Shown one piece after another: positions 100 to 23,954 of a DNA stretch of 45,954 nt. The stretch is taken from assembly GCA_902780385.1 (NCBI GenBank), contig CACZFF010000039.1, positions 1 to 45,954 of the forward strand, read 5' to 3'. The first letter of the stretch is position 1; each line of letters begins with the position of its first letter. This stretch comes from an uncultured Lachnospiraceae bacterium (lineage in GTDB: Bacteria > Bacillota > Clostridia > Lachnospirales > Lachnospiraceae). The position numbers and the translations under genes are program-made. The notes beneath the pieces were generated by a model, which was given only the letters and a program-made list of their open reading frames with translations, was not told the DNA's origin and did no database searches.

Positions 100-198
100 A
101 TACCCATCCTGTGTATAGGGATAGGTTGAAAAACTTTGATAAAGAGCGGCTGCAGGCAGTCATGCTCTCTTTTGCAGAAAGGAGAATACAGGCGATTT

Positions 199-1476
199 AT
201 GAAAACAGTCAAATTTTTTTATGCACACACAACACAGGATCTGCAGGTACCGGACGACACACCGGTCCTGACCAGCAAGGTGGATCAGCTTACCAGTGAA
301 CGGACAGGCATTGAGATCGTGCGTGAGGCCATGGAGAATCCGATTGACAGCCCTCGTCTGAGCGAACTCGCAAAGGGAAAAGATGACTGCGTTATCATTA
401 TCAGTGATCACACAAGGCCTGTACCCAGCAAGGATATTCTGCCCAATATGATCCGTGAACTGCGCGAAGGCAGCCCCGACATCAAGATTACCTTGCTGGT
501 CTCCACCGGTTTCCATCGTCCTACGACGATCGAGGAACTCAGGAACAAGCTGGGCGATGCGCTTTATGAGGAGTTTAAGGACAACATCGTCGTCCATGAT
601 GCACATGATCCTTCCCGGAACGTCAAAGTCGGCTCTCTGCCCAGCGGTCCCGACTGCATCATCGATAAAGTGGCGATCGACACACAGCTGCTGGTATCAG
701 AAGGTTTCATTGAGCCTCATTTCTTTGCGGGCTTTTCCGGCGGCAGAAAGAGCATCCTGCCCGGCGTAGCGGATGCCGTCACGGTCATGGGCAACCACTG
801 CTCCAAGTTTATCGACAGCCCCTATTCCCGCACCGGTATTCTGGACCATAACCCCATGCATGAGGATATGCTCGCCGCCGCGAGAATGGCAAAGCTCGCT
901 TACATCGTCAATGTCGTCATCGATGAGGACAAAAACACCGTCGCTGCCTTTGCCGGCAATTTCGAGACTGCTCACCGCAAGGGCTGCGATTTTATCGCGG
1001 ATTATGTGTGCGTGAAGCCGGCCTACGCGGATATCGTCATTACCACCAACGGCGGTTATCCCCTGGACCAGAACGCTTATCAGTCACCCAAGGGCATGAC
1101 CGCGGGCGAGGCGACCGCAAAGGACGGCGCAGTCATTATCATGCTGGCTTCCTGCTCGGACGGAACGGGCGGTGATTTCTTCTATCATATCATTGCGGAT
1201 GAGCCGGACATCGAGACTGCCTATCAGAAATTCCTCGCCACACCCCAGGAAGAGACGGCTCCCGACCAGTGGTGCAGCCAGATCCTGGCCCGTATCGTCC
1301 GCAAGTACAAGGTCATCTTTGTGGCCAATGAAGACCAGAAGGATATGATCGAGGGACTGAAGATGGAATACGCCCCTAGCCTCGAGGCAGCCTACAAACG
1401 CGCCAGAGAGATCAAGGGAGAGGATGCTTCCCTGACCTGCATCCCCAACGGTATTTCCGTTGTTGTCAGAGAATAA
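199..1476 (+). CDS. larA: LarA-family nickel-dependent lactate racemase homologue
   Basis: A 425-residue protein of the DUF2088/LarA family, whose characterised member interconverts D- and L-lactate using a nickel-pincer nucleotide cofactor. It shows SDHTRPVPS (about residues 69-77), STGFHRPTT (102-110) and EPHFFAGFSGGRKSILPG (172-189). His174, Lys184 (the lysine that holds the cofactor in Lactobacillus plantarum LarA) and His200 fall at the same residue numbers as in that enzyme, and His106 is close to its catalytic His108. Several LarA homologues act on other 2-hydroxyacids, so the substrate is not certain. The ATG at 199 was chosen because homologues begin at MKT; GGAG at 180-183 is rather far upstream. 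No larB, larC or larE cofactor genes are visible. The HTH gene follows after 4 bases. Confidence 0.85.
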   Translation: MKTVKFFYAHTTQDLQVPDDTPVLTSKVDQLTSERTGIEIVREAMENPIDSPRLSELAKGKDDCVIIISDHTRPVPSKDILPNMIRELREGSPDIKITLLVSTGFHRPTTIEELRNKLGDALYEEFKDNIVVHDAHDPSRNVKVGSLPSGPDCIIDKVAIDTQLLVSEGFIEPHFFAGFSGGRKSILPGVADAVTVMGNHCSKFIDSPYSRTGILDHNPMHEDMLAAARMAKLAYIVNVVIDEDKNTVAAFAGNFETAHRKGCDFIADYVCVKPAYADIVITTNGGYPLDQNAYQSPKGMTAGEATAKDGAVIIMLASCSDGTGGDFFYHIIADEPDIETAYQKFLATPQEETAPDQWCSQILARIVRKYKVIFVANEDQKDMIEGLKMEYAPSLEAAYKRAREIKGEDASLTCIPNGISVVVRE

Positions 1477-11302: not shown

Positions 11303-12319
11303 CTACAGTTCATGTTCGCTCCAGTCGTCGTTGAGGACGAGTTCCCGCCAGCTGACACTTTTGTCTGCCGCTTTCTGGCGGTGGAGTTCGCCGACCATAT
11401 GGCGTATAAGCTTTTTCTGATCTTCCGTGTGGAAACGCCTCAGATAGGGAACATCTCCCTGGATGTCTGTGAAATAGTAGAGGACATCCGGACGCTGGAC
11501 GGAGGTGTAGACCGCCAGCTTGCCCATCAGGTTATCTTCCTGGTAGATGTTGTATCCCCGCACAAGCTCTGACGCATCTGCCTGAAGAAGGACTGCCGCC
11601 TTTTCTCCCTCCACTTCCTCGGCACTCGTATCCATCCGGTCAAGGTTGAAATTGAGATTTTCCGCAATGAGGGCGTTGATATCTGTGCGGCCGCCGGCTG
11701 CTGCCCGGATGGCCTGCAAGGTCACGCGCTCTCCGTTTTTGCGGCAGAGGATCTGCTTTACGGACGGGCTGACCTCCATGCCTTCCGCAGCCAGGGAAAG
11801 GCAATAGCCCAGAAGATGTTCGTCATGTTCGGACTGCACCAGATTGAGCAGCGTTCCGCCTTCACGCAGATTCCTCCGCAGAATCCCCGCGGTTTTTTCG
11901 AAGTATTCCATGAATAGGGATGCGCGGTGAAGATAGAAAGCGCCCCTGTTAAACTGCGGACAGGGAATATCTGCCTGTATCCATTTGTGGGAAGAAGCGG
12001 AAGAACTGTCCGGATCTTTGTCGGCGGGACTGAGGAGCCGGGGCGTAACGGCGATCACTGTGTCAAACATGCCGCCGTCATAGTCTTCGAGATCTGTCTG
12101 GATCACAAGAGGCTGAACGAGGCCGCTTTGAGCCTCCGCGGGAGTCTCTTTGGTCAGAACTACGATTGAAGCGTCAGGGAAAACATGCGCGATATGCGCT
12201 GCGGCCTTCATGTCGAGACAGACACAGAGGATTTTGCGTCCGAAAGCATCCCGGTTTTTGTCCAGCCAGTTGATGATTTTTTCGTTGGCGTTGTCCATGT
12301 GCGGGTTTTCAGAAGTCAT
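11303..12319 (-). CDS. Unrecognised protein, possibly methyltransferase-like
   Basis: I do not recognise this 338-residue soluble protein. Residues about 25-160 alternate strands and helices like a Rossmann fold (KILCVCLDMKAAAHIA, then ASIVVLTKE, then DTVIAVTPRLL). The later segment AGILRRNLREGGTLLNLV is of the kind seen in class I methyltransferases, but a clear glycine-rich SAM loop is missing. The C-terminal 100 residues (GYNIYQEDNLMGKLAVY, then LYYFTDIQGDVPYL) resemble no domain I can name. AAAGGA precedes the ATG. It stands alone, with repeat copy B directly upstream. Confidence 0.6.
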   Translation of the reverse strand: MTSENPHMDNANEKIINWLDKNRDAFGRKILCVCLDMKAAAHIAHVFPDASIVVLTKETPAEAQSGLVQPLVIQTDLEDYDGGMFDTVIAVTPRLLSPADKDPDSSSASSHKWIQADIPCPQFNRGAFYLHRASLFMEYFEKTAGILRRNLREGGTLLNLVQSEHDEHLLGYCLSLAAEGMEVSPSVKQILCRKNGERVTLQAIRAAAGGRTDINALIAENLNFNLDRMDTSAEEVEGEKAAVLLQADASELVRGYNIYQEDNLMGKLAVYTSVQRPDVLYYFTDIQGDVPYLRRFHTEDQKKLIRHMVGELHRQKAADKSVSWRELVLNDDWSEHEL

Positions 12320-12468: not shown

Positions 12469-12704
12469 AACCAGATTCCTTTTGACGGAATCCGGACATA
12501 TTGTATCTCCCAATATAGCATAGTCTGTCTTATCTGTCACGATAAGCGGCGGCAATTCATGCACGATCCGGGCAGGTCTGCCGTGAACTGCCGGATTTGT
12601 ACAAGTTAGTTAACGGTAATGGAGGAAAATTGCACATTTTTACACACATTGCAATAAAAAACTAAAATGAAGGGTAAAAATACACAAATCTGAGATTGCG
12701 GGAA

Positions 12705-12733
12705 TTGAAGCATTTGTAAAAAAGTTATATAAT
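12705..12733 (+). promoter_or_regulatory. Predicted promoter of the lut operon
   Basis: TTGAAG (12705-12710), a 17-base spacer and TATAAT (12728-12733) lie in an AT-rich stretch 115 bases upstream of lutC. Apart from repeat copy B and this promoter I see nothing definite in 12469-12830. GTTAAC occurs twice, near 12608 and 12754, and could be regulator half-sites. Confidence 0.6.
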
Positions 12734-12847: not shown

Positions 12848-13396
12848 ATGAGTACAACGGATGCGCTGTATGAACGTTTCAAAGCGAACCTGGAAGCGGT
12901 CAACGGAGAATGTTCATTGGCAGCCAAAGCAGACGCAGGAAAAGTGGTAGCAGATCTTTTCCAGGCAAAAGGCATCAAGACAGCCTGCGTGGCAGAGACT
13001 GATTTTCTCCGTGAGATTGGAATTGTTCCTGCACTGAGAGAGGCAGGTGTTGAGGTCTTCACGGATCACATCCGTCTTCATGCGGAAACTGCGCAGGGAG
13101 GAATCTCGGAAGCGCAGTATGGCGTTGCAGATCTGGGAAGCATTCTGCAGGTCGGAGACGAGATTGATGCGAGGATCGTTGCGACCATGTCTGCAGATTA
13201 TTTCGGCATCCTCAAGGAGTCAACGATCGTCGATGATTATGATGCCATGTTTGATGTGATCTGCGCGCTGCCGGAAATGCCGAATTTTGTCGGATTTGTA
13301 ACCGGACCCAGCAGAACTGCCGATATCGAGTGTGTCAGTACAGTCGGTGTCCACGGTCCCCTCAGACTCAGCATCGTTATCATTCAGGATGCCTGA
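12848..13396 (+). CDS. lutC: LutC-like LUD-domain lactate utilisation protein
   Basis: A 182-residue LUD-domain protein of the LutC/YkgG family, a subunit of the LutABC iron-sulfur complex that oxidises lactate to pyruvate. Recognisable parts are TACVAETDFLREIGIVPALREAG in the N-terminal third (interrupted motif), then QYGVADLGS and the C-terminal GPSRTADIECVSTVGVHGP, typical of LutC. ATG at 12848 was chosen because AGAAAGGAG (12830-12838) lies nine bases upstream. The lutB-lutA fusion follows after 85 bases, so this is the first gene of the cluster that extends to 22040. Confidence 0.85.
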   Translation: MSTTDALYERFKANLEAVNGECSLAAKADAGKVVADLFQAKGIKTACVAETDFLREIGIVPALREAGVEVFTDHIRLHAETAQGGISEAQYGVADLGSILQVGDEIDARIVATMSADYFGILKESTIVDDYDAMFDVICALPEMPNFVGFVTGPSRTADIECVSTVGVHGPLRLSIVIIQDA

Positions 13397-13481
13397 TGAC
13401 GGGTACGGACAGAGAATGCGGTGCATGAGTTCATGGCACTGCTGACTGCGCACCGGTTTTTAGGAAAGGAGAGAATCAATC

Positions 13482-15638
13482 ATGGCTAGTCTGGAGCTGA
13501 AGCAGGAAATTCAGGAAGCTTTGAAGAATCAGACTCTCAGCAGAACACTGGGAACATTCTGTGCGACTTATCCTGCGAAGAGAGAAAAATCATATGCCGG
13601 CGTCGATTTCGAGTCGACACGTGACAGCATTAAAGAAGTTAAGAGCTATGCAGCAGACCACATCGATGAGATGATCGATGATTTCACAAAGAACTGCACA
13701 GCCCGCGGCGGACATGTTTTCCACGCGAAGAGCGGCGAAGAGGCTATGGAGTATATCCGTAATCTCGTAAAGGAAAAAGGTGTCAAGACCATCGTCAAGT
13801 CCAAATCCATGGCTTCTGAGGAAATCCACATGAACCATGTCCTGGGCGATGACGGCGTACAGGTACAGGAGACCGACCTCGGCGAGTTCATCATCGCTCT
13901 TGAGGGCAACACTCCCGTCCATATGGTCATGCCTGCCCTGCATCTGAACAAGGAGCAGGTCGCCGACTATTTCACAGAGTATACAAAAGAGAAGAACGAG
14001 CCCATCATCGCCGAGGAAGTCAAGACCGCCAGGAAGATCATGCGCGACAAGTTCATCCATGCTGACATGGGTGTTTCCGGCGCAAACGTGGCTGTCGCCG
14101 ATACGGGCACCGTTTTCACAATGAGTAACGAAGGCAACGGCCGTATGGTCGGTACACTGCCCAAGATCCATCTGTATGTCTTCGGTATCGAGAAGTTCGT
14201 CAAGAGCCTGTCCGATGCCCGTTACATCTTTAAGGCCCTTCCCCGCAATGGCACGGGCCAGCGTATCACTTCTTATATTTCCATGTACACAGGCGCTTCC
14301 GAGGTGACCGTGGACAAGGATACCGATGAGAAGGCTAAGAAAGAATTCTACGCAGTCATTCTGGACGATCCGGGACGCCGCGCCATCCTCGCGGATCCTG
14401 ATTTCAGGGAAGTCTACAACTGCATCCGCTGCGGCGCATGTCTTGACGTATGTCCTGCATTCGCTCTGCTGGGCGGCCATGTATATGGCTCCAAGGTCTA
14501 CACCGGCGGTATCGGCACCATTCTGACCCACTTCCTGGTCTCCGAGGAGAGAGCGGATGAGATCCAGAACATCTGCCTGCAGTGCGGACGCTGCAAAGAG
14601 GTCTGCGGCGGCGGACTTCACATCCCCGAGATGATCATGAAACTGCGTGAGCGCAGCTACGAGGCAAATCCGAATCCCGTTTATAAATTCGCTCTGGATG
14701 CAGTCAGCGACAGAAAGCTGTTCCACTCCATGCTGCGTATCGCCTCCGTGGCACAGGCTCCGTTCACAAAGGGCACCAACTTCATCCGTCATCTGCCTAT
14801 GTTCCTGTCCGGTATGACAGAGGGCAGAAGCCTGATGAGCATTGCTCCCGTGCCTTTCCGCGACATCTTCCCGACCATCCAGCAGAAGGTCGACAATCCC
14901 AAGGGCAAGATCGCTATGTTCACCGGATGTCTGCTTGACTTTGCTTATGTAGACATCGCCAAGGCAGTCATCGCGGATCTGAACTCCATCGGCTATATTG
15001 TCGATATGCCTATGGGTCAGTCCTGCTGCGGCGCTCCCGCAACCTTCATGGGCGACCGCGAGAACGCAAAGAAGACCGCAGAGCTCAATGTCGAAGCAAT
15101 GCACGCGGAAGATTACGATTATGTCGTATCCGCATGCCCGACCTGTACACACCAGCTGCGAGTCTACAAAGACTTCTTCGAGGAAGGCTCCGAGATGTAC
15201 AAGAAGGCAGAGGAACTGGGCCGCAAGTCCTTCGACTTCTGCAAGCTCTTCTATGATCTGGGCGGACTGGCAGAGGAAGGCGACGAGACACCTCTTACCA
15301 TCACTTACCATGATTCCTGCCACCTCAAGAGAGAGCTGGGCGTCTTCCAGGAGCAGAGAGAACTCCTCAAGGCAACCAAGGGCATCAACCTGGTCGAGAT
15401 GGAAGAGTCCGACGTCTGCTGCGGTTTCGGCGGCACATACAGCATCAAGCTTCCCGAGGTCGCTGCACCCATCCTGGCCAAGAAGATCAGCCACATCCAG
15501 GATACCGGCGCTTCTGTCGTCGCTGTCGACTGCCCCGGCTGCCTGATGCAGATCCGCGGCGGTATGGACGCACACGGTCTTCCTACCGAAGTCAAGCACA
15601 CTGCTGTGATCATCGCGGAGAAACGCGGCCTGATCTGA
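13482..15638 (+). CDS. Fused LutB-LutA lactate oxidation iron-sulfur protein
   Basis: A 718-residue protein joining two usually separate subunits. Residues 1-300 are a LutB-type LUD domain. Two ferredoxin-type [4Fe-4S] sites follow (C314-C317-C320-C324 and C365-C368-C371-C375). From about 455 to the end there are two CCG domains as in LutA (GQSCCGAP, ACPTCTH, then YHDSCHLKR, DVCCGFGG, DCPGCLMQ), the heterodisulfide-reductase-like cysteine motifs. Together with LutC this should oxidise L-lactate, or a related 2-hydroxyacid, to the keto acid. A strong AAAGGAGAG precedes the ATG. The electron acceptor is not shown; the quinone and FixCX genes downstream are suggestive. Confidence 0.88.
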   Translation: MASLELKQEIQEALKNQTLSRTLGTFCATYPAKREKSYAGVDFESTRDSIKEVKSYAADHIDEMIDDFTKNCTARGGHVFHAKSGEEAMEYIRNLVKEKGVKTIVKSKSMASEEIHMNHVLGDDGVQVQETDLGEFIIALEGNTPVHMVMPALHLNKEQVADYFTEYTKEKNEPIIAEEVKTARKIMRDKFIHADMGVSGANVAVADTGTVFTMSNEGNGRMVGTLPKIHLYVFGIEKFVKSLSDARYIFKALPRNGTGQRITSYISMYTGASEVTVDKDTDEKAKKEFYAVILDDPGRRAILADPDFREVYNCIRCGACLDVCPAFALLGGHVYGSKVYTGGIGTILTHFLVSEERADEIQNICLQCGRCKEVCGGGLHIPEMIMKLRERSYEANPNPVYKFALDAVSDRKLFHSMLRIASVAQAPFTKGTNFIRHLPMFLSGMTEGRSLMSIAPVPFRDIFPTIQQKVDNPKGKIAMFTGCLLDFAYVDIAKAVIADLNSIGYIVDMPMGQSCCGAPATFMGDRENAKKTAELNVEAMHAEDYDYVVSACPTCTHQLRVYKDFFEEGSEMYKKAEELGRKSFDFCKLFYDLGGLAEEGDETPLTITYHDSCHLKRELGVFQEQRELLKATKGINLVEMEESDVCCGFGGTYSIKLPEVAAPILAKKISHIQDTGASVVAVDCPGCLMQIRGGMDAHGLPTEVKHTAVIIAEKRGLI

Positions 15639-15648
15639 TAGCAGGCGG

Positions 15649-15748
15649 CAGTCCGGATCCCTGCATTTCTGCAGGAAATCTCTGCAGGAAATCTTTACAG
15701 GATATTTCTGCAGTGGATGAAACTGCAATGGATGGAACTGCCGGACTG
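15649..15748. repeat. Degenerate 13-14 bp tandem repeats in the lutBA-menA spacer
   Basis: TCTGCAGGAAATC is present twice in tandem (15668-15680 and 15681-15693). Degenerate units follow up to 15748. The block is bounded by the inverted pair CAGTCCGG (15649-15656) and CCGGACTG (15741-15748). No terminator is visible, so read-through into menA is likely. Confidence 0.55.
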
Positions 15749-15783
15749 TTTACAAATAAATAGATAGAAAACGAGTTGTAATC

Positions 15784-16779
15784 ATGACGACAAGCATGAA
15801 TGTCAAGACAGGGACATCGAAAAAAGGGCAGGCAGCGCCTGACCCGGTCAAATATGAACGGATGACGGCCAAGATGGCTTTCCAGCTTGCCATGATCCAT
15901 ACCTGGCCGGCGTCTGTATGCCCGGCGCTGTTCGGCATTTTCTGGTGCCTGTTCAGGGGGATTTCCCTCACACCGGCCCAGTGCATCCTGCTGGCAGCGG
16001 CTTGTATCCTGTCACAGTCTTCGGTCAACACGCTGAATGACTATGTGGACTACGTCAACGGAACCGACAGCGAAGAGGACAATGTGGAAGTCAGTGACGC
16101 GGTGCTGGTCTACAACCACCTGAATCCGCGGCACGCCCTGATCCTGGGACTTGTCTACCTGGCAAGTGCCGCGCTCTGCGGCGTGACTGCCGCCTGGCAC
16201 TCGGGCCCTGCGCCCTATGTTGTCGGGATCATCGGCGGTCTGACGGTGCTGGCCTACAGTGTCAGCCCGGTATCTGTGGCTTCTCTCCCTCTGGGAGAAC
16301 TTGTTTCCGGATTTGTCATGGGCGGCCTCATCCCCCTGGGAACCGCGGCCGTCGCTGACGGGACCTTCCACTGGGAGATCCTTCCGGAATGCCTTCCGCT
16401 GATCATCGGTATCGCGCTGATCATGCTTAGCAATAACGGAAGCGATATAGAAAAAGATCGTATCGCAGGGCGCACGACCCTTCCGGTCGTGCTGGGCCGT
16501 CCCCGTTCCCTGGTCCTGTATCGGACAATGCTGGGGGTGTGGATCGCACTCCTGATCCTCCAGCCCCTCCTGCAGGTCGGGTGGATTGCCATCGCGGGCA
16601 TCCTGCTGACGATTGCCCTCGGGCATAAGCCCTTCGGATTTATCCTCCGGGCAAAGCTCGATCCTTCGGACAGGATCCGCCAGATGAAAAGCATCACGGC
16701 ATCCAACATGATCGGAAACGGTTTCCTGGCCCTGACCTACGGGGCTGCCTGGCTTCTGCGGATCCTCAAAGTCTTCTGA
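15784..16779 (+). CDS. menA: UbiA-family prenyltransferase, MenA-like
   Basis: A 331-residue membrane protein with about eight spans. The first Asp-rich motif is NTLNDYVDYVNGTDSEED (about residues 81-98) and the second is SNNGSDIEKDRIAGRTTLP (about 218-236), both as in UbiA/MenA enzymes that attach a polyprenyl chain to an aromatic acceptor. The adjacent UbiE-type methyltransferase points to 1,4-dihydroxy-2-naphthoate as the acceptor (menaquinone route). The rest of the men pathway is absent from the window. The ribosome binding site before ATG 15784 is weak. Another aromatic acceptor is possible. Confidence 0.85.
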   Translation: MTTSMNVKTGTSKKGQAAPDPVKYERMTAKMAFQLAMIHTWPASVCPALFGIFWCLFRGISLTPAQCILLAAACILSQSSVNTLNDYVDYVNGTDSEEDNVEVSDAVLVYNHLNPRHALILGLVYLASAALCGVTAAWHSGPAPYVVGIIGGLTVLAYSVSPVSVASLPLGELVSGFVMGGLIPLGTAAVADGTFHWEILPECLPLIIGIALIMLSNNGSDIEKDRIAGRTTLPVVLGRPRSLVLYRTMLGVWIALLILQPLLQVGWIAIAGILLTIALGHKPFGFILRAKLDPSDRIRQMKSITASNMIGNGFLALTYGAAWLLRILKVF

Positions 16780-16849
16780 CACATTTGGGGCTGCAGAGTG
16801 CATCTGTTTTCAATCGAAATCCGTATTTGAATTGTTTTTACAAAAACAT

Positions 16850-17551
16850 ATGAAGAAAGAGCAGGGGCGCGCCCATGTCTATGAGATCTTCGAGACACTG
16901 GCTCCGCGCTATGACAGGGCCAATGCCCGTATCAGTCTCGGCCTTGAAAAGGGCTGGAAGAGGCTGTTGGTAAAAAGAGTGCTGGCACAGGCCGGCAGCG
17001 GAGGAGACATCCTGGATGTCTGCTGCGGCACGGGAGATATCGCAATCGCTCTCGCACAGAGAGGTCCGGGCTTTTGTGTCACGGGACTTGACTTTTCCCC
17101 CGCTATGCTGGAAGTCGCCGGGAAGAAGGGACAAGGTATCAGCAACCTGCAGCTGCTTCAGGGAGATGCCATGAAGCTTCCCTTCGCGGACGGAACGTTT
17201 GATGCCGCCTGCATCTCGTTCGGTCTCAGGAACACGCCGGATTACCGCCGTGTCCTGAGGGAGATGAGACGCGTGGTGCGGACGGGCGGAAAGGTCTACT
17301 GCCTGGATTCCTTCGTTCCCGACAATCCGGTCATCCTGCCGGCATACCGTCTCTACTTCCGGTATATAATGCCGGTCCTGGGAGGCGGACGAAAATACAG
17401 AAAACAATATACATGGCTTTACCAGTCGACAGAACAGTTTCCCAGGAGGAGAGAACTGATGAAACAGTTCGCCTGCGCCGGCCTCGGGCAGGTGCAGAGC
17501 CGCAGCAGAATGCTGGGCGCCTGTGTTCTGATCGAAGGGACCAAAGCCTGA
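16850..17551 (+). CDS. menG: UbiE/MenG-type quinone C-methyltransferase
   Basis: A 233-residue class I SAM methyltransferase. SAM motif I is DILDVCCGTGDIA and motif II is VTGLDFSPAML. The UbiE signatures are YDRANARISLGLEKGWKR near the N-terminus and ISFGLRNTPDYRRVLREM near residue 130, which marks demethylmenaquinone/demethylubiquinone methyltransferases. In the usual pathway it follows MenA directly. ATG 16850 was chosen for fit to the family; a TTG at 16832 is possible, and neither has a good ribosome binding site. It ends 22 bases before the fixC start. Confidence 0.88.
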   Translation: MKKEQGRAHVYEIFETLAPRYDRANARISLGLEKGWKRLLVKRVLAQAGSGGDILDVCCGTGDIAIALAQRGPGFCVTGLDFSPAMLEVAGKKGQGISNLQLLQGDAMKLPFADGTFDAACISFGLRNTPDYRRVLREMRRVVRTGGKVYCLDSFVPDNPVILPAYRLYFRYIMPVLGGGRKYRKQYTWLYQSTEQFPRRRELMKQFACAGLGQVQSRSRMLGACVLIEGTKA

Positions 17552-17573
17552 CAGATTACAACAGGAGAAAACT

Positions 17574-18816
17574 ATGAGCGAAGAAAATTCTTGCCAATGC
17601 CGGAATGGAAGTCCTTCTGGCAGACCGCGGTGACTTCTGCGGCTCCAAGAACGTGACCGGCGGCCGCCTCTATGCGCACAGCCTGGAGAAGGTTTTCCCC
17701 GGCTTCGCTGAGGAGGCTCCCATTGAGCGCAAAGTCACGCACGAGAAAATCTCCCTGATGACCCCCAAGAGCTCGCTGGATATCGGATTCAGCTCCGAGA
17801 AACTCGGCGAGGATCCCGAGAGTGCATCCTACACGATCCTGCATTCCAAATTTGATCCCTGGCTCGCGGAGAAATGCGAGGAGGCAGGCGTTATGCTTGT
17901 TCCCGGCATCCGCGTTGACAGCTGTGTCGTCGAGGACGGCAAGGTCGTCGGTATCGATGCCGGCGGCGAGATCATGTATTCCGATGTCGTCATTATCGCG
18001 GACGGTGTCAACTCTCTGCTTGCCCAGAAACTCGGCATGAAGAAGGAACTGACCCCTCACGAAGTCGCGGTAGGTGTCAAGGAAGTCATCAAACTGGATG
18101 AGGAAGTCATCAACCAGCGCTTCGGCGTCCGCGGCAACGAAGGTGTCGCATGGCTGTCCGCAGGCGACGCAACTGCCGGAGCATTCGGCGGCGGTCTCCT
18201 CTACACCAACAAAGACACCATCTCCATCGGTATTGTTGCGACACTGGCAGACATCGGCTATACCGATATTTCCATTCCGGATCTGCTCGACCGCTATAAA
18301 GAGCATCCCGCCATCAAGCCTTATATCGAAGGCGGCGAGACCATCGAGTACAGCGCACACCTTGTTCCCGAGGCAGGCGTTCACATGATCCCTGAACTCG
18401 TCCGCGACGGCGTTCTCGTGACCGGCGACGCGGCAGGCTTCGTTGTAAACCTCGGCTTCACTGTCCGCGGTATGGACTTCGCAGTGGAGTCCGGCCGTCT
18501 GGCTGCAGAGGCAGTCATCCGTGCCAAAGAGGCAGGCGACTTCAGCAAGGAAGGCCTCTCTTCCTATGTAGATGCCCTGAACGAGAGCTTCATCATGAAA
18601 GACATGAAGGCCCTCAAGGGATTCCCCGCAATCCTCTCCCGCAGAGAAGTCTTCAAGGATCTCCCGGAGATGGTGGACGACATCTGCACGAAGCTTTTCA
18701 CGGTCAGCGGAAAACCCAGCATGGACTTCATCATGTATGTGATCAATTCCATGGCTTCGCACCTGAGCGTTGCACAGCTCACGAGCCTGGTAGGAGACAT
18801 CATGGACGCATTCTGA
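17574..18816 (+). pseudogene. fixC: FixC-like ETF:quinone oxidoreductase, 5' end frameshifted by a small deletion
   Basis: AACAGGAGAAAACT leads to an ATG at 17574 (MSEE), but that frame stops after 19 codons. From 17578 another frame gives KKILANAGMEVLLADRGDF and runs to 18816 as a standard FixC flavoprotein: GSKNVTGGRLYAHSLEK, a GDAAGFVVNLGFTVRGMDFA FAD-binding motif in the C-terminal part, about 410 residues. Missing between MSEE and KILANAG are roughly 17-18 residues that in the family contain the first GxGxxG FAD motif. The gap is not a multiple of three. Translation from ATG 17605 would give a 403-residue protein without that motif. Either the gene is inactivated or the assembly lost about 50 bases. 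Confidence 0.8.
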
Positions 18817-18899
18817 TCCGTGCGTACCTTTGCGCATGAGACCGGAGCGGTACCATGAAAATACTGTTTCTGTATACTGACTGATGATATGTGAAGAGC

Positions 18900-19028
18900 G
18901 AAAAATATTGCCGATGCAATATTTTTCACTCCAGAGGTTTGTGTTGCGAGGCGGCCCAAACCTCCGATGATCGCATCGGAGAAACCCGTTCCGGGCTTTC
19001 TCCTCGCGCTGCCGCTCTGGAGAGCGGC
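18900..19028 (+). ncRNA. Highly structured fixC-fixX intergenic region
   Basis: A chain of near-perfect stems fills the spacer. GAAAAATATTGC/GCAATATTTTTC has loop CGAT (18900-18927). GAGGTTTG/CAAACCTC spans 18934-18964. CTCCGATG/CATCGGAG has loop ATCG (18962-18981). GGAGAAACCCG/CGGGCTTTCTCC has one bulge (18978-19003). GCCGCTC/GAGCGGC spans 19011-19028. Neighbouring stems share bases, and CTCCAGAG (18929-18936) can instead pair with CTCTGGAG (19015-19022). It could be an mRNA processing or attenuation element, or a REP-like repeat. Confidence 0.5.
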
Positions 19029-19051
19029 ATGTCGGAAAAGAGGATAAAAAA

Positions 19052-19336
19052 ATGGCTAAAATGAGTGTAGATGATAAATTGGGACTGGATCTGTTCCACA
19101 CCGACGAACATAATCCCCACATCACGGTCAATGAAGATTATGATGATATGGAAGAGATCCGCAAAGTTCTTCTTGCCTGCCCTGCCGGCCTTTATCACTA
19201 TGAGAACGGCAAGGTGACCTTCAGCCACGAGGGCTGCCTGGAGTGCGGCACCTGCCGTGTACTCTCCATCGACAAGGTCGTCAAGAGCTGGGATCACCCC
19301 ATGGGCGGCGCAGGTGTTCAGTTCCGTCAGGGCTGA
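19052..19336 (+). CDS. fixX: FixX-like ferredoxin partner of FixC
   Basis: A 94-residue ferredoxin-like protein. It shows LACPAGLYHY and, later, HEGCLECGTCRVLS, the reduced Cys pattern of FixX and of the C-terminal cluster domain of ETF-ubiquinone oxidoreductase. It should carry one [4Fe-4S] cluster and pass electrons between FixC flavin and quinone. AAAAGAGGATAAAAAA precedes the ATG. It is separated from fixC by 235 bases holding the structured region. No etfA or etfB gene is present in the window. Confidence 0.85.
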   Translation: MAKMSVDDKLGLDLFHTDEHNPHITVNEDYDDMEEIRKVLLACPAGLYHYENGKVTFSHEGCLECGTCRVLSIDKVVKSWDHPMGGAGVQFRQG

Positions 19337-19384
19337 TGCTTTTGCTAAAGCAGCACAAATGTGCTGTAAATAATTGAAACACAC

Positions 19385-19440
19385 GGGCTCTTATGCCGCT
19401 CTTTTGCACGGCGCGGCATAGGAGCCCTCTTGGTTTTGTA
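19385..19440 (+). terminator. Hairpin after fixX, probable terminator
   Basis: GGGCTCTTATGCCGC (19385-19399) pairs with GCGGCATAGGAGCCC (19413-19427) over 15 bases with one G-T. It is followed by TCTTGGTTTT, an imperfect T tract. Partial termination would separate the ATPase genes from the upstream operon. Confidence 0.6.
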
Positions 19441-19593
19441 CAAGATCGTGACGAAAAAGGCCGGGGCAGCGTCGTGCCCGCACGAACGCTCCTAAAGCCT
19501 TGACGCAAGCCGCCTGCGGTTTGCTGCGTCCGGACATGAGAAAGAGGCCGGCAGCCTTGTGCCACCACAAAAGCTCCGGCAGGAAAGGCAGCC

Positions 19594-20787
19594 ATGAGCA
19601 GAATCTACATCATCACAGGCAAGGGCGGTGTCGGAAAGACCAGCCTTGCGGCGGCTCACGCTGTGCGCAGTGCGCGGGAAGGACACAATACCCTCCTTGT
19701 CAGCGCGGATATGGCGCACAATCTGGGGGATATTTTTCAGACAAAGGCAGGCGGATATGTGCAGGAAATCGCCCCCTCTCTGTCTGTACTGGAGCTGGAT
19801 CCCTACATGCTGATGAGGGAGGAGTATCCCAATATCAACAAGACCATCGCGAATCTTTCCGGAACTGTCGGCGCGGCTATTGATTCGATCGGGGAGACCT
19901 ATATGATCCCGGGACTGGAGAACCTTTTTTCCCTCCTCAAGATCCGGGATCTGTATCTGAGCGGCACCTACGACAGGATCATTGTGGACTGTGCGCCGAC
20001 GGGGGAGACGCTCTCCCTCTTAAAGCTTCCGGAACTGCTCTCCTGGTATGTGGAGAAGTTCTCTCCGGTTGGAAGGACGATGACAAGAGTGCTTACGCCG
20101 GTCGCAAAGCTCCGCTATCGGATGGAACTGCCTGACAAGGCCGCCATGGATGAGTTCGGGCAGCTCTACACCAAACTTGTAAAGCTGCAGGATCTGCTCA
20201 AAAACCCGGAAAGCAGCCGCGTTCGTCTGGTCTGCATCCCCGAGAGGATGGTCGTCGAGGAGACGCGGCGCAGCTATATGTATCTGAACCTGTATCATTA
20301 TCCGGTGGACGGAGTCTTTATCAACCGTATTCTGCCCGACCATACCGGCAGCAGCTTTATGGAGAACTGGCAGAAGATCCAGAAGGGCTATCTTGAGGAG
20401 CTGGAGAGTGTTTTCACAGAGCTTCCCATCACAAGGATTCCCTGGTTCCCTGCGGAGATCCGGGGTATGGAAGCCGTGGAGCGCCTGAGCCGGGATGCCC
20501 TGTCAGAAGAGAATCTCTTCGACAGGCCGGTGCGGACAGACAACGAGATCTACGCCCCGATCGAGGGGGGCTACAGTCTCACCATCCGTGTTCCCGGAGC
20601 CTCTCAGGCGGATGTGGAGGTCTTTATGCGGGAAATGGATGTGGATATACGGATCCGGAACTTCATGCGCAGCATACCCCTCCCGGGCGTCCTGCGCGGG
20701 GCGAAGATGATCTCCGCAGTCGTGGAGAATGATGCACTTACCATCTGCTTTGAAGTGAAAAAAGTCGAAAAAGAAGCCGATGGATAA
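19594..20787 (+). CDS. ArsA/Get3-like ATPase, first of a tandem pair
   Basis: A 397-residue SIMIBI-class ATPase. The deviant Walker A is GKGGVGKTSL (residues 9-18), the switch I region is SADMAHNLGDIF, and DCAPTGETLSLL starts at residue 132. The C-terminal 75 residues form an ArsA_HSP20-like beta domain (YSLTIRVPGASQADVEVF). Family members drive arsenite export (ArsA) or tail-anchored protein insertion (Get3); bacterial forms with this C-terminal domain are poorly characterised. No arsB, arsC or arsR is nearby, so arsenic resistance is unlikely. A paralogue follows after 62 bases. The link to the fixCX-quinone genes is positional only. Confidence 0.85.
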   Translation: MSRIYIITGKGGVGKTSLAAAHAVRSAREGHNTLLVSADMAHNLGDIFQTKAGGYVQEIAPSLSVLELDPYMLMREEYPNINKTIANLSGTVGAAIDSIGETYMIPGLENLFSLLKIRDLYLSGTYDRIIVDCAPTGETLSLLKLPELLSWYVEKFSPVGRTMTRVLTPVAKLRYRMELPDKAAMDEFGQLYTKLVKLQDLLKNPESSRVRLVCIPERMVVEETRRSYMYLNLYHYPVDGVFINRILPDHTGSSFMENWQKIQKGYLEELESVFTELPITRIPWFPAEIRGMEAVERLSRDALSEENLFDRPVRTDNEIYAPIEGGYSLTIRVPGASQADVEVFMREMDVDIRIRNFMRSIPLPGVLRGAKMISAVVENDALTICFEVKKVEKEADG

Positions 20788-20849
20788 AATAAGGCGATGG
20801 CTGATCGCAGCCTGGCAGCAGAATAATCGGCAAGAGGGAAGCGGGACAG

Positions 20850-22040
20850 ATGAGGATTCTGATTTATACCGGAAAAGGCGGCGTCGGTAAGACAAGTATC
20901 GCGGCGTCGACAGCAGTAAAGATCGCAAGGACGGGTAAAAAAGTGCTGGTGATGAGCACAGACCAGGCGCACAGCCTGGGGGATTCACTGTGCATGAAGC
21001 TGGGGACGGAGCCCGGGGAGGTCTTTCCCGGCCTGGATGCCATGGAGATCGACCCCACCAGGGAGAGCCGAAGGGCCTGGGGCACCTTGCAGGATTATCT
21101 GCGGCAGCTCATTTCGCAGAAGGCCAACGGAGGCATTGAGTCCGATGAAGTGCTGCTCTTTCCCGGCCTGGAGGAGCTGTGCTCGCTGATCCGTATTCTG
21201 GATCTCTATGAAGAGGGAAACTATGACGTGCTTGTCGTGGACTGCGCGCCCACAGGGGAGACTTTGTCCCTCCTGCGCTATCCGGAGCGCCTGTCGGTCC
21301 TTGCGGACCGACTCCTGCCCATGGTCCGCGGCGTGACCAGCATCTTCGGAGGACTGATCTCCAGGAAAACCACAGTCCCCAAACCCAGGGACATGGTCTT
21401 TGCCGAGTTTGATACTCTGGTAAAGCGCCTCAACGCCCTTCAGAAGATCCTGAGGGACAGGTCTGTGACCAGCATGAGGATCGTGACGACACCGGAGAGG
21501 ATCGTCCTGGAGGAGGCCAGAAGGAGCTTTACCTGGATCAACGAGTATGACTTCGGTGTGGACGCCGTCTGCATCAATAAAATCTATCCGGAAGAGGCCA
21601 TGAAGGGCTACTTTGAGGGATGGCAGCAGATGCAGCGGGAGAGTCTGCAGCTGGCGGCAGAGAGCTTTCCCGGACGCAGACAGTTCTCACTGCTTTTGCA
21701 GGACGCGGAGATCAGAGGTATTCCCGCCCTTGAGAAGGCGGGGGATGAGCTCTATGAAGGGGATGACCCCGCGCAGATCTACTGCAGGGAGGAGGCTTTC
21801 CGCATGGAGTATGATCTGAAGACCGGAATCCGCAGCCTGATCATTTCGCTCCCCTATGCGGATGCGGAAGAGATCCGGACGGAGAAGGAGGGTGATGACC
21901 TGATCCTGTTTGTCCGCAATGAGGTGCGGCGCCTGCGCCTGCCGGATATTCTGTGCCGGCGTGACCTGGACGGGCAGACCTTTGAAAACGGGGAATTGAC
22001 GATCCGTTTCGGATATCCCTATCAGAGGAAGCAGAATTAA
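20850..22040 (+). CDS. ArsA/Get3-like ATPase, second of a tandem pair
   Basis: A 396-residue paralogue of the preceding gene. It has GKGGVGKTSI (residues 8-17), STDQAHSLGDSL (closer to the Get3/ArsA switch I than copy one), DCAPTGETLSLLRYPE, and the C-terminal beta-rich domain (YDLKTGIRSLIISLPYADAE). The two copies are clearly diverged, which suggests an old duplication and perhaps a heterodimer or a pseudo-dimer arrangement like two-domain ArsA. GGGAAGCGGGACAG lies before the ATG. The 3' end carries three imperfect 17-bp tandem units (22026-22076) that include the stop codon. Confidence 0.85.
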   Translation: MRILIYTGKGGVGKTSIAASTAVKIARTGKKVLVMSTDQAHSLGDSLCMKLGTEPGEVFPGLDAMEIDPTRESRRAWGTLQDYLRQLISQKANGGIESDEVLLFPGLEELCSLIRILDLYEEGNYDVLVVDCAPTGETLSLLRYPERLSVLADRLLPMVRGVTSIFGGLISRKTTVPKPRDMVFAEFDTLVKRLNALQKILRDRSVTSMRIVTTPERIVLEEARRSFTWINEYDFGVDAVCINKIYPEEAMKGYFEGWQQMQRESLQLAAESFPGRRQFSLLLQDAEIRGIPALEKAGDELYEGDDPAQIYCREEAFRMEYDLKTGIRSLIISLPYADAEEIRTEKEGDDLILFVRNEVRRLRLPDILCRRDLDGQTFENGELTIRFGYPYQRKQN

Positions 22041-22264: not shown

Positions 22265-23803
22265 TCACTCGTCTTCGAGGGAGTGGGATTTGCGGACCAG
22301 GACCTTCTGCTCGTATACGGAGAAGACGTCGTCGACGAACTTCCTGTCGGGAGAAGGAGTGACTGCACTGACGATCGGGACGATGATCAGGCCTGCGATC
22401 ATGGCGAAGGCACCGGCGTTGATGGGGGACTTGATGAAGTGCAGGAACATGTTGGAAACAGTGATGCCTACACCTGCGATGTAGCTTGCCCATACAGCGG
22501 CTGTGCTGATCCGTTTGGAGTACAGACCGTACATAAACGGAGCCAGGAATGCGCCTGCGAGTGCGCCCCAGGAAATACCCATCAGCTGAGCGATGAAGGT
22601 GGGCGGATTGAGGGCGATGACGACGGACAGGATGATGAAGAAGGCGACCAGGGCACGCATGACGACAAGCTGGGTCTTTTCAGTCATATCCTTTACGACA
22701 GTCTCTTTGAGGAAGTCCAGGGTCAGTGTGGAGCTCGATGTGAGGACCAGCGAAGAGAGCGTGGACATGGAAGCCGAAAGTACCAGGACGATGACGATAC
22801 CGATCAGAAGATCAGGCAGGGTGGAGAGCATCTGGGGAACGATGGAGTCGTATGCGATGCTGCCGTCTGCTTTGTAGATCTCGGGGCAGTCGAAGAGACG
22901 TCCGAAACCGCCGAGGAAGTAGCAGCCGCCTGCCACGATCACTGCGAAGAAAGTGGAGACGATGGTACCGGTCTGAACAGCTTTTTCATCTCTGATGGCA
23001 TAGAATTTGTGCACCATCTGGGGAAGTCCCCAGGTACCGAGGGATGTCAGGATGACAACGCCCAGGAGGTTGAGAGGGTCGGGACCGAAGAAGCTGGCCA
23101 GGAGACCCTGGCTTCCCTGCAGGGCGGGAACCGCCACATCGTCCGCGGGGATCAGGGACAGCTCATGGATCGCGTTCAGGAATCCGCCGTTGCTCTTGAG
23201 GACGGCCAGGATGACTGCTGTGATACCGAAGAGCATGATGATGCCCTGAATGAAGTCATTGAGCGCTGTGGCCATGTAGCCGCCTACGATGACGTATACA
23301 CCGGTCAGGACTGCCATGACGATCAGGCAGACTTCGTAGGGAATATCAAAGGCCATTCCGAACAGACGGGAAAGACCATTGTAGATCGAAGCGGTGTAGG
23401 GGACCAGGAAAATGAAAGCGATGACGCTGCCTGCGATCTGCAGGGGCTTGGACTGGAAGCGCTTGCCGAAGAAATCGGGCATTGTGCGGGAGTCCAGCTT
23501 CTGGGTCATGACGCGGGTGCGTCTGCCCAGGATCAGCCATGCAAGGAGAGATCCGATAAAGGCATTTCCAAGTCCGATCCAGGTTGAAGAAAGACCGTAT
23601 TTCCATCCAAACTGTCCTGCGTAGCCAACGAATACGACAGATGAGAAATAGGAAGTGCCGTACGCGAAAGCGGTGATCCAGGGTCCGACCTCGCGGCCGC
23701 CCAGGACGTAATCAGTGACGTTGCCGGCTTTTCTGCGGCTATAGAAGCCGACGCCGATCATGACACTGAAAAATATCAGGAGCAGCAGGATTTTAAGAAA
23801 CAT
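22265..23803 (-). CDS. Sodium:solute symporter (SSS family, PutP/PanF-like)
   Basis: A 512-residue membrane protein with about 13 spans. N-terminal VTDYVLGGREVGPWITAFA and SSVVFVGYAGQFGWKYG, and central SSLVLTSSSTLTLDF, are SSS-family features that couple uptake to sodium. It is closest by eye to the proline or pantothenate type, but the substrate cannot be assigned. The start was set at 23803 because GGAGGAAAAAGTC precedes that ATG; the upstream open frame is not coding-like. Its promoter on the minus strand is TTGACA (24005-24000), 17 bases, TTTAAT (23982-23977). It could import a carboxylate for the lut cluster, but this is speculation. Confidence 0.85.
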   Translation of the reverse strand: MFLKILLLLIFFSVMIGVGFYSRRKAGNVTDYVLGGREVGPWITAFAYGTSYFSSVVFVGYAGQFGWKYGLSSTWIGLGNAFIGSLLAWLILGRRTRVMTQKLDSRTMPDFFGKRFQSKPLQIAGSVIAFIFLVPYTASIYNGLSRLFGMAFDIPYEVCLIVMAVLTGVYVIVGGYMATALNDFIQGIIMLFGITAVILAVLKSNGGFLNAIHELSLIPADDVAVPALQGSQGLLASFFGPDPLNLLGVVILTSLGTWGLPQMVHKFYAIRDEKAVQTGTIVSTFFAVIVAGGCYFLGGFGRLFDCPEIYKADGSIAYDSIVPQMLSTLPDLLIGIVIVLVLSASMSTLSSLVLTSSSTLTLDFLKETVVKDMTEKTQLVVMRALVAFFIILSVVIALNPPTFIAQLMGISWGALAGAFLAPFMYGLYSKRISTAAVWASYIAGVGITVSNMFLHFIKSPINAGAFAMIAGLIIVPIVSAVTPSPDRKFVDDVFSVYEQKVLVRKSHSLEDE

Positions 23804-23954
23804 GACTTTTTCCTCCAAAAACAATAAATACAATTTGTAGTGACATGACGCCTGAGCAGTGTTCTGCAATCCCTTCTGAAAATATCTTTTGGATCGCCCG
23901 TAAACGATTTTCGGGAAATTTTTCATCCGGGCACTTTTACACTTAAACGCTTAG

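Follow-up and report, generated by a model that had tools for sequence, protein, structure and literature searches.

Among the systems that most resemble the locus described here, the lactate dehydrogenases of the LdhGH, LldEFG and LutABC types share with it a LutC partner and an LdhH-type fused LutB-LutA protein, here above the curated cut-off, to which the present cluster adds genes for a quinone reductase, for the late steps of quinone biosynthesis and for two paired ATPases. None of these additions is, to our knowledge, part of LutABC or of the Desulfovibrio LdhGH, and we know of no system in which FixC and FixX are not linked to an electron-transfer flavoprotein (ETF). The FixABCX or EtfABCX complex (7koe) has homologues of the FixC and FixX found here, whereas the cluster of the source genome lacks FixAB/EtfAB and is tied to lactate oxidation. 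The Anaerobutyricum lct cluster, another case of lactate use by Lachnospiraceae, comprises a permease, D-iLDH, EtfAB, Bcd and a racemase and relies on ETF and Bcd, with no quinone genes described in the part of that source drawn on here (PMC11406415). Its dehydrogenase differs from that of the present cluster, and an lct-like set stands directly upstream of lutC in three relatives of the latter (loci L089, L129 and L117).

The window analyzed here is the whole stretch of 45,954 nucleotides from the contig of an uncultured member of the Lachnospiraceae, a family usually regarded as purely fermentative and without quinones. Genes were identified by comparing the bit scores of profile models with curated cut-offs, complemented by Pfam domains. 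At the level of sequence, the eight-gene set proposed in the initial annotation (lutC, ldhH, ubiA, ubiE, fixC, fixX, arsA-1 and arsA-2) was borne out by these profile matches, with all genes on the + strand within 12848-22040. These genes and their neighbors are as follows:

136..1476, +, larA, nickel-dependent lactate racemase, same contig, 11 kb upstream (NF033504, 578 bits, cut-off 460)
12639-12668 and 12705-12733, +, promoter-like sites upstream of lutC (consensus scan)
12848..13396, +, lutC / ldhG-like LUD-domain protein (PF02589 LUD, 97 bits, cut-off 22.6)
13482..15638, +, ldhH, fused LutB-LutA (NF045670 LdhH, 1016 bits, cut-off 800)
15784..16779, +, UbiA-family prenyltransferase, MenA-like (PF01040, 95 bits, cut-off 34)
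16850..17551, +, ubiE/menG methyltransferase (TIGR01934, 222 bits, cut-off 158)
17574..18816, +, fixC, EtfC/ETF-QO-type flavoprotein, 5' end interrupted (open frame from 17605)
19052..19336, +, fixX, ferredoxin-like (NF011993, 89 bits, E 1.5e-25, below the cut-off of 166)
19594..20787, +, arsA-1, Get3/ArsA-fold ATPase (TIGR00345, 239 bits, cut-off 135; PF02374; PF17886)
20850..22040, +, arsA-2, paralogous Get3/ArsA-fold ATPase (TIGR00345, 215 bits, cut-off 135; PF17886 ArsA_HSP20)
22265..23926, -, sodium:solute symporter beside the cluster (PF00474)

The ATG of lutC lies 9 bp inside its ORF and is preceded by the ribosome-binding-like AAAGGAG, and the gene, which encodes the LUD small subunit, adjoins ldhH 85 bp upstream of it, while TTG 16832 is an alternative possible start of ubiE. 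The promoter consensus scan returned 8 sites against 5.6 expected by chance, which is no evidence of function, and found none further on the + strand between 12705-12733 and 19880. The large subunit combines, in Pfam terms, LUD, a 4Fe-4S dicluster and two CCG stretches, and LutC and LdhH would together form an LdhGH-type iron-sulfur lactate dehydrogenase that converts L-lactate to pyruvate.

The joint reading of these genes had been made to depend on the lut, men, fix and arsA genes staying together in related genomes, and the linkage is kept. A UbiA of the cluster type occurs in 22 of the 62 genomes of the genus, and in all 22 ldhH and ubiE lie no more than 1.5 kb from it, with fixC equally close in 21 (the contig of the remaining one ends), even though the identity of UbiA among these loci falls to 45%. 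The comparison was extended to named genomes through the best 80 UbiA loci, 50 from Bacillota and 30 actinobacterial, of which the 22 Bacillota loci with enough flanking sequence are referred to as full-context loci. The order and strand lutC-ldhH-ubiA-ubiE-fixC-fixX are preserved in all 22 of these, which is far beyond chance, and arsA is present in 20. Where at least 4.5 kb of upstream sequence was available, 35 of 39 Bacillota loci carry ldhH, and a lutC-type LUD small subunit beside it was likewise counted in 35 of the 39, whereas four loci have UbiA without ldhH despite enough upstream sequence; of the 34 Bacillota loci that extend 3.5 kb or more downstream, 32 contain fixC and fixX. The linkage was seen in loci of Lachnospiraceae, Oscillospiraceae, Megasphaera, Eubacterium yurii and Pseudoramibacter, and with the baits used no cluster partner was detected at any of the 30 actinobacterial loci. 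Among the 50 Bacillota loci, a polyprenyl-diphosphate synthase is inserted between ldhH and ubiA in 30, an LctP-type lactate permease joins the cluster in 12, and a PF00474 symporter follows it in seven; the symporter of the window is a possible route of monocarboxylate uptake.

Given this linkage, the reading that we consider rather probable is a lactate-oxidation module tied to the membrane quinone pool, in which LdhGH would pass electrons, through FixCX and either directly or by way of ETF, to a menaquinone-type quinone finished in the cell. It is the linkage of the genes that suggests the delivery of electrons from LdhGH to quinone, with FixX and FixC taking up the electrons of lactate and reducing the quinone in the membrane. 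Less in favor of this reading, the divergence of LdhH tracks that of UbiA and UbiE only weakly (rho 0.30 and 0.18). The lactate-to-quinone module proposed earlier for this supposedly quinone-free group is thus retained in outline, in agreement with the linkage, the permease, the polyprenyl synthase, the lct-like set and larA, with two of its parts amended.

The assignment of FixC is central to this proposal. Its protein reaches 466.8 bits with NF007450 (cut-off 466) and misses the FixC-named NF007542 (444 of 610), its best PDB match is the FixC chain of 7koe (7koe_C, 252 bits, against 84 for ETF-QO), and the quinone-binding domain of ETF-QO, PF21162, is above its cut-off (31.6 versus 27.7). 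These scores also bear on the suggestion that FixC and FixX form a reductase that draws on ferredoxin to saturate the isoprenoid tail, like MenJ and the geranylgeranyl reductases, so that the cluster would make a modified quinone. The position of FixC next to the prenyl synthase, UbiA and UbiE and its 70 bits with the model of the geranylgeranyl reductase superfamily (cut-off 159) are in keeping with such a role, but the MenJ model yields 26 bits of 700 and the geranylgeranyl reductase structure 30, far below the values for the FixC-like model and structure, and tail saturation is considered very improbable.

In the source genome, fixC lacks 53 bp just after ATG 17574 in comparison with four relatives (41 bp in comparison with L033, which carries a 12-bp gap of its own), and the gap shifts the frame. 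Because it removes the FAD-binding GGGLAG, the gene may be non-functional in this genome or the assembly may be wrong here. The GxGxxG pattern is present in 34 of 39 FixC rows and, by eye, also in L082, L083 and L121, leaving the source genome and L105 without it.

The partner of FixCX may be something other than LdhH. No etfBA or fixAB was found in the window, and etfA genes of the source genome lie on two other contigs (C21 and C19), one pair about 29 kb from a second FixC. Upstream of the cluster, etfBA occurs in three of the best 80 named loci, equivalent to three of the 39 Bacillota loci with an upstream flank of 4.5 kb or more, where a permease, etfBA and an acyl-CoA dehydrogenase directly precede lutC, the latter two lying between the lactate permease and lutC; L089 and L129 also carry a FAD-linked lactate-dehydrogenase-like oxidase, which is all that L117 lacks of this set. 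Since etfBA adjoins the cluster in these relatives and is absent from that of the source genome, the partner of FixCX may be ETF and not LdhH, FixCX acting as a co-regulated, general ETF:quinone (or, in reverse, quinol:ETF) oxidoreductase, with the electrons of LdhGH going to another carrier, such as NAD or ferredoxin, and the quinone connecting the ETF pools with, for instance, a molybdoenzyme or the butyryl-CoA dehydrogenase that reduces crotonyl-CoA. The occurrence of FixCX and UbiA with a molybdoenzyme and without lactate genes at a second locus fits this alternative, and the weight given to it was raised slightly because etfBA was found beside the cluster in the three loci. Against it stand the rarity of etfAB next to the cluster, the joint presence of lutC, ldhH and fixCX in every full-context locus, and the divergence of LutC and LdhH, which tracks that of FixC (rho 0.75 and 0.71). 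We regard it as possible, though on the unlikely side.

The quinone itself was expected to be made by MenA and MenG, an account that is incomplete. The prenyltransferase is classed by its profile matches as UbiA-family and MenA-like, since it falls short of all MenA equivalog cut-offs (at best 120 of 277; TIGR00751, 42 of 102); residues N82, D86, D89, D221 and D225 are the same in all 15 homologues aligned; these form N-D and D-D motifs, which we take to have the roles of the Asp-rich motifs of the UbiA superfamily. UbiE passes the MenG/UbiE subfamily model and misses the equivalog NF001243 (212 of 235). The searches for ring-making enzymes covered MenD, MenB, MqnC and MqnA/D. Not one of the 62 genomes of the genus has MenD, MenB or MqnC over the cut-off (sub-cut-off, weak matches number 61, 59 and 37, respectively), whereas 14 control genomes gave seven, seven and two. 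The MqnA/D family PF02621 is absent from the source genome and from ten of ten in a further set, and is barely to weakly over its cut-off in two of the 62, neither of which holds the cluster.

Given the lack of MenD, MenB and MqnC, the naphthoquinone nucleus is probably scavenged, presumably as DHNA, and the cell, apparently unable to make the ring by a known route, may depend on its neighbors for the precursor. UbiA, UbiE and the polyprenyl-diphosphate synthase, which is in the cluster in many relatives and at the second quinone locus in the source genome, would then finish it, by adding the prenyl tail to the naphthoate nucleus and methylating the latter. External DHNA can supply quinones to bacteria without their own synthesis, as reported for Lactiplantibacillus plantarum (PMC10746273), which puts it to extracellular electron transfer, whereas the present cluster ties the quinone to lactate oxidation; gut isolates fed with quinones (PMC5738691) are a further precedent. 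The missed MenA cut-offs and the missing ring enzymes could also mean that UbiA and UbiE act on another aromatic ring, from another precursor or ring pathway, to give a novel redox lipid. This is judged improbable, as those of the best 80 UbiA relatives that fall outside Bacillota come from Eggerthellaceae and further Coriobacteriia, MenB is present in both Eggerthellaceae tested with a homologous UbiA (against none of eight cluster holders), and UbiE is above its subfamily cut-off.

The second locus, where ubiA-fixC-fixX is joined to a Tat-signal molybdo-reductase of the DMSO-reductase family, with neither lactate genes nor arsA, is a possible electron exit, and this enzyme could reoxidize the quinol in the source genome and in eight sister genomes. 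A close homologue of it is lacking in 13 of the 22 cluster genomes; cytochrome bd was found in none of 28 genomes, and a fumarate-reductase-like flavoprotein over the cut-off in seven of 28. Both the molybdoenzyme and this flavoprotein are absent from 11 of the 22 cluster genomes, and no acceptor was identified in that half of the genus holders.

The tandem ATPases resemble Get3d (8egk, 8elf; PMC10248533) in their Get3 fold, deviant P-loop, lack of CxxC and C-terminal alpha-crystallin-like ArsA_HSP20 domain (PF17886), which is present in both, and differ from it in being two regularly paired paralogues, in separate clades, whose hosts, by their names, are non-photosynthetic anaerobic Bacillota. 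The predicted model of arsA-1 (mean pLDDT 75.8) aligns with 8egk at a TMq of 0.67 over 404 columns, and the query aligns with Get3 through the region of the hydrophobic client-binding insert, where model residues 156-167 and 170-177 have pLDDT below 50. The absence of CxxC and the deviant P-loop hold in all 57 rows longer than 320 aa (two shorter rows were dropped); the switch I and II patterns are kept in most rows, another point of difference from Get3d. The mycobacterial BagA/BagB (6bs3) is also a pair of Get3-like ATPases, but arsA-1 gives just 53 and 38 bits with the BagA and BagB models. Its gene context presumably differs as well.

It was suggested that these ATPases help to insert or assemble a membrane component, which the data do not show: in a simple scan UbiA alone of the cluster proteins has a hydrophobic membrane window, and arsA is absent within 10 kb of two Megasphaera loci and from the second FixCX-UbiA locus. 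Probably, the two would work as a heterodimer that uses ATP to target or hold a membrane-associated part, FixC being the likeliest client. The same absences, and the position of the pair at either end of the cluster, would also suit a mere neighbor, arsenic-related or otherwise foreign to the module. Its presence at 20 of the 22 full-context loci speaks against this, as do the scores with the arsenical-pump model TIGR04291 (99 and 93 bits of 650, for arsA-1 and arsA-2) and the scanned subset of window ORFs, in which no arsenic-resistance family was reported besides the ArsA models and weak UbiE matches to ArsM methyltransferase models; such an unrelated pair is somewhat doubtful.

In its fullest form, the proposal would be of a widespread and previously undescribed lactate respiration in gut Bacillota, in which obligate scavengers of the quinone nucleus finish the quinone with this operon, lactate reduces it via FixCX, and a two-subunit Get3d-like ATPase places or loads the quinone reductase at the membrane; taken as a whole, this is speculative and rather unlikely. 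Lactate is a main cross-feeding product in the gut and in the rumen, where acidosis results when it accumulates. If these bacteria need an outside naphthoquinone precursor for its oxidation, lactate removal would hinge on quinone-making neighbors, and DHNA would offer an easy means of probing this. The proposal, if true, would also give a physiological setting for studying the roles of alpha-crystallin Get3 proteins outside photosynthetic organisms, and would place quinone-based anaerobic electron transport in the Lachnospiraceae, which are usually called purely fermentative.

All eight genes named in the initial annotation, namely lutC, ldhH (a fused lutB-lutA), ubiA, ubiE, fixC, fixX, arsA-1 and arsA-2, are present on the plus strand at 12848-22040 of the window, as established from ORFs and profile models. 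The window makes up the entire contig C39 of a 3.3 Mb genome with an estimated completeness of 92%.

Features of the window and their profile scores
Within 12848-22040, plus strand: ldhH (LdhH), NF045670, 1016 bits (cut-off 800)
Within 12848-22040, plus strand: ubiE, UbiE/MenG subfamily model, 222 bits (cut-off 158)
Within 12848-22040, plus strand: fixC, FixC-like flavoprotein model, 467 bits (cut-off 466)
Within 12848-22040, plus strand: fixX, 89 bits (below the cut-off of 166)
Within 12848-22040, plus strand: arsA-1 and arsA-2, Get3/ArsA family, 239 and 215 bits (cut-off 135), each with an ArsA_HSP20 domain
136-1476: LarA, nickel-dependent lactate racemase, 578 bits (cut-off 460)

The UbiA of the cluster is MenA-like, yet falls under every MenA equivalog cut-off of the curated models. 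None of the scanned ORFs neighbouring larA was assigned to LarB, LarC or LarE. Upstream of lutC, a divergent gene (11303-12319), which has no Pfam or NCBIfam match, also adjoins the cluster in several close relatives. The window further carries a SCIFF peptide maturase (29425-30816; TIGR03974, 734 bits, cut-off 425) and a minus-strand ORF (4792-6063) with repeats like those of choline-binding surface proteins, far under the cut-offs.

Compared with four relatives, the fixC of the window lacks 53 bp directly after the start, a gap (in the region 17574-17610) which causes a frameshift and the loss of the FAD-binding glycine motif, and which measures 41 bp when set against a fifth relative, locus L033 (identical to L076), where a 12-bp in-frame gap lies at the same place and the motif is retained. 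Locus L105 has a nearby gap with the motif lost, so that 5' gaps of differing size are found in three assemblies, two of them deprived of the motif. These are metagenome assemblies, and the three gaps near one site may stem from the assembly, from variation among strains or from genuine decay. Between fixC and fixX, a segment with inverted repeats (18818-19050) has an 80-bp part that matches at 81% near the arsA-2 end of loci L040/L087, and another part matched by the closest kin only.

The search with UbiA covered 117 relatives, among which all 62 genomes of the genus are taken to be included, as read from the genome handles, and UbiA was present in 22 same-genus genomes, that of the window included. 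In all 22 loci, ubiA has both ldhH and ubiE no more than 1.5 kb away, and fixC likewise in 21, the contig ending in the remaining one. In longer stretches, arsA was seen in 16 of the 21 other cluster genomes of the genus; four of the five loci without it are accounted for by contig ends and the fifth, L046, is not, and in two loci (L044 and L049) the arsA pair lies upstream of lutC instead.

Among named genomes, a UbiA alignment yielded 203 relatives; the analysis covers the best 80 (50 Bacillota and 30 Actinomycetota), weaker relatives falling outside it, and these 80 overlap in part with the genus set, some of whose genomes appear there under public names. Among these best 80 of 203, ldhH and lutC occur in 35 of the 39 Bacillota loci having at least 4.5 kb upstream (the exceptions being L107, L113, L147 and L154), and fixC and fixX in 32 of the 34 having at least 3.5 kb downstream, with fixX absent from L086 and L154. 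Where both flanks were available (4.5 kb up and 6.5 kb down), lutC-ldhH-ubiA-ubiE-fixC-fixX follow one order on one strand in 22/22 Bacillota loci, and arsA accompanies them in 20, the two exceptions being Megasphaera. The holders include Sarcina sp. DSM 11001, Frisingicoccus caecimuris, Megasphaera, Eubacterium yurii, Pseudoramibacter and Oscillospiraceae, and in Frisingicoccus the adjoining genes almost touch or overlap by ORF coordinates, an operon-like arrangement. Loci L107 and L113 present UbiA-UbiE beside an opposite-strand LctP-type permease, without ldhH or lutC, the parts being differently arranged.

The initial annotation had made the joint module dependent on a linkage of the lut, men, fix and arsA genes, and this linkage is conserved in the same-genus and the named Bacillota loci; given that the gene order persists in divergent genomes, chance or an annotation artefact is ruled out. 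With the same baits (E 1e-10), the 30 actinobacterial loci (21 with both flanks) gave no partner gene, and the linkage therefore does not simply follow from the presence of this UbiA. The divergence correlations (0.84 for LdhH-LutC, 0.79 for ArsA1-ArsA2 and 0.18 for LdhH-UbiE) were set aside as proof of a single unit, given that they are mixed and have no species-tree control.

With midpoint potentials of about -190 mV for lactate/pyruvate and about -74 mV for menaquinone, electron transfer would run downhill, and bifurcation is not needed. FixC matches the FixC chain of an EtfABCX structure at 252 bits, as against 84 for ETF-QO and 30 for geranylgeranyl reductase, scores on which a role as tail saturase is rejected. 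The window's genome has two etfA genes, both outside the cluster, and the proposed direct passage of electrons from LdhH to FixX and on to FixC is inferred. The main rival, in which FixCX serve ETF, appears rather unlikely, and it is strengthened by three of the 80 named loci (L089, L117 and L129), where etfBA lies upstream of lutC, so that a general absence of etfAB from the clusters does not hold. The order in L089 and L129, within the first 6.4 kb, is lactate permease, FAD-linked oxidase, EtfB, EtfA, acyl-CoA dehydrogenase and lutC, and L117 has the same set without the FAD-linked oxidase; the upstream set of L089 and L129 has the make-up of the Anaerobutyricum lct lactate cluster, as presented in passages of a review (PMC11406415). 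This lct-like set upstream of lutC ties the quinone module to lactate use. An LctP-type permease is also found in 12 of the 50 Bacillota loci; against TIGR00795 (cut-off 341), one such permease scored 414 bits and another 338, just under.

Of the 50 Bacillota loci, 30 have a polyprenyl diphosphate synthase, whose best model is a heptaprenyl synthase (under cut-off), placed between ldhH and ubiA, and another five have it at a different position. Eleven members of the genus, the window's genome included, have no synthase in the cluster, and eight of these hold a second quinone locus, its synthase being seen in seven, with the eighth contig ending before it. This second locus, on contig C21 in the window's genome (handles L032 and L160) and found in eight sister genomes, comprises a Tat-signal molybdopterin oxidoreductase with iron-sulfur and NrfD-family membrane partners, a histidine kinase, a response regulator, TatA, TatC, FixC, FixX, a second UbiA, a prenyl synthase and a radical-SAM protein. 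Among the models run, only the Tat-signal domain passed its cut-off for the molybdoenzyme, and none assigned a substrate. Close homologues (E <=1e-100) occur in 11 of the 62 genus genomes, the match in genome G005 being partial, and in 9 of the 22 cluster holders. Genome G060, not listed as a UbiA holder, has a molybdoenzyme (C46:17384-19978) reported as 100% identical to that of the window's genome, which may reflect bin contamination or recent transfer. As for other electron exits, cytochrome bd was found in 0/28 genomes and a flavocytochrome-c-like reductase passed its cut-off in 7/28, with a partial copy in the window's genome; counting these two exits, molybdoenzyme and reductase, 11 of the 22 holders, whose genomes are incomplete, have neither.

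Two arsA copies are present in 28 of the 31 arsA-bearing loci (exceptions L078, L108 and L129). From 59 sequences of the named loci and the window, the 57 over 320 aa form two clades in agreement with gene position, separated by long branches (SH-aLRT 100%), with one misplaced row (L099_ArsA1_15002), the second copy of its locus, labelled from its best bait. The P-loop is intact and CxxC absent in 57/57, and 52 and 50 show the switch I and switch II patterns, respectively. For arsA-1, the predicted structure (mean pLDDT 75.8) matches Get3 structures, NosGet3d having the top query TM-score (0.67) among the 50 matches listed. Given the two clades, the retained P-loop, the lack of CxxC and these matches, the pair is Get3d-like in its predicted build, and the two proteins perhaps form a heterodimer. 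An arsenic role is unsupported, the pair failing against the arsenical-pump model. The proposal that the ATPases assist a membrane component stands as speculative, given that simple hydropathy (rather than a topology predictor) gave no hydrophobic window beyond UbiA, and so no classical tail-anchored client in the cluster, and that the pair is missing from two Megasphaera loci and from the C21 locus.

MenD, MqnC and MenB were over cut-off in none of the 62 genus genomes (best 77, 57 and 171 bits against cut-offs of 244, 428 and 343), with controls positive in 7/14, 2/14 and 7/14, respectively; sub-cut-off matches in 61, 37 and 59 genomes are as expected, since related enzyme families exist. 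PF02621 (MqnA/D) was not found in the window's genome and passed its cut-off in two genus genomes, neither holding the cluster. Seven named holders and the window's genome gave MenB over cut-off in 0/8, two of two tested Eggerthellaceae with a homologous UbiA had it, and PF02621 was absent from all ten. A complete menaquinone pathway encoded elsewhere in the genome is rejected, since none of these four models gave a convincing hit. Of the proposal that MenA and MenG make the quinone, the MenA-like UbiA and the UbiE/MenG stand, and ring uptake is the likelier reading for the remainder; on the ring genes searched, DHNA uptake would be the simplest reading.

Such uptake has precedent in gut isolates whose growth is induced by quinones or DHNA (PMC5738691) and in the quinone auxotroph L. 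plantarum, which contains MK-6 and MK-7 once grown in DHNA (PMC10746273). In a survey of 254 gut genomes, Men pathways were often incomplete, and reductases occurred where quinone synthesis was lacking (PMC4746308); the available passages of a gut lactate review name menaquinone once, for Desulfovibrio (PMC11406415). No description of the cluster was found in the titles, abstract starts and passages of the searchable open-licence literature. The cluster is real, with support stronger than the initial annotation could have known, and it brings known parts together in a conserved arrangement, with a presumed and testable dependence on an outside quinone precursor.
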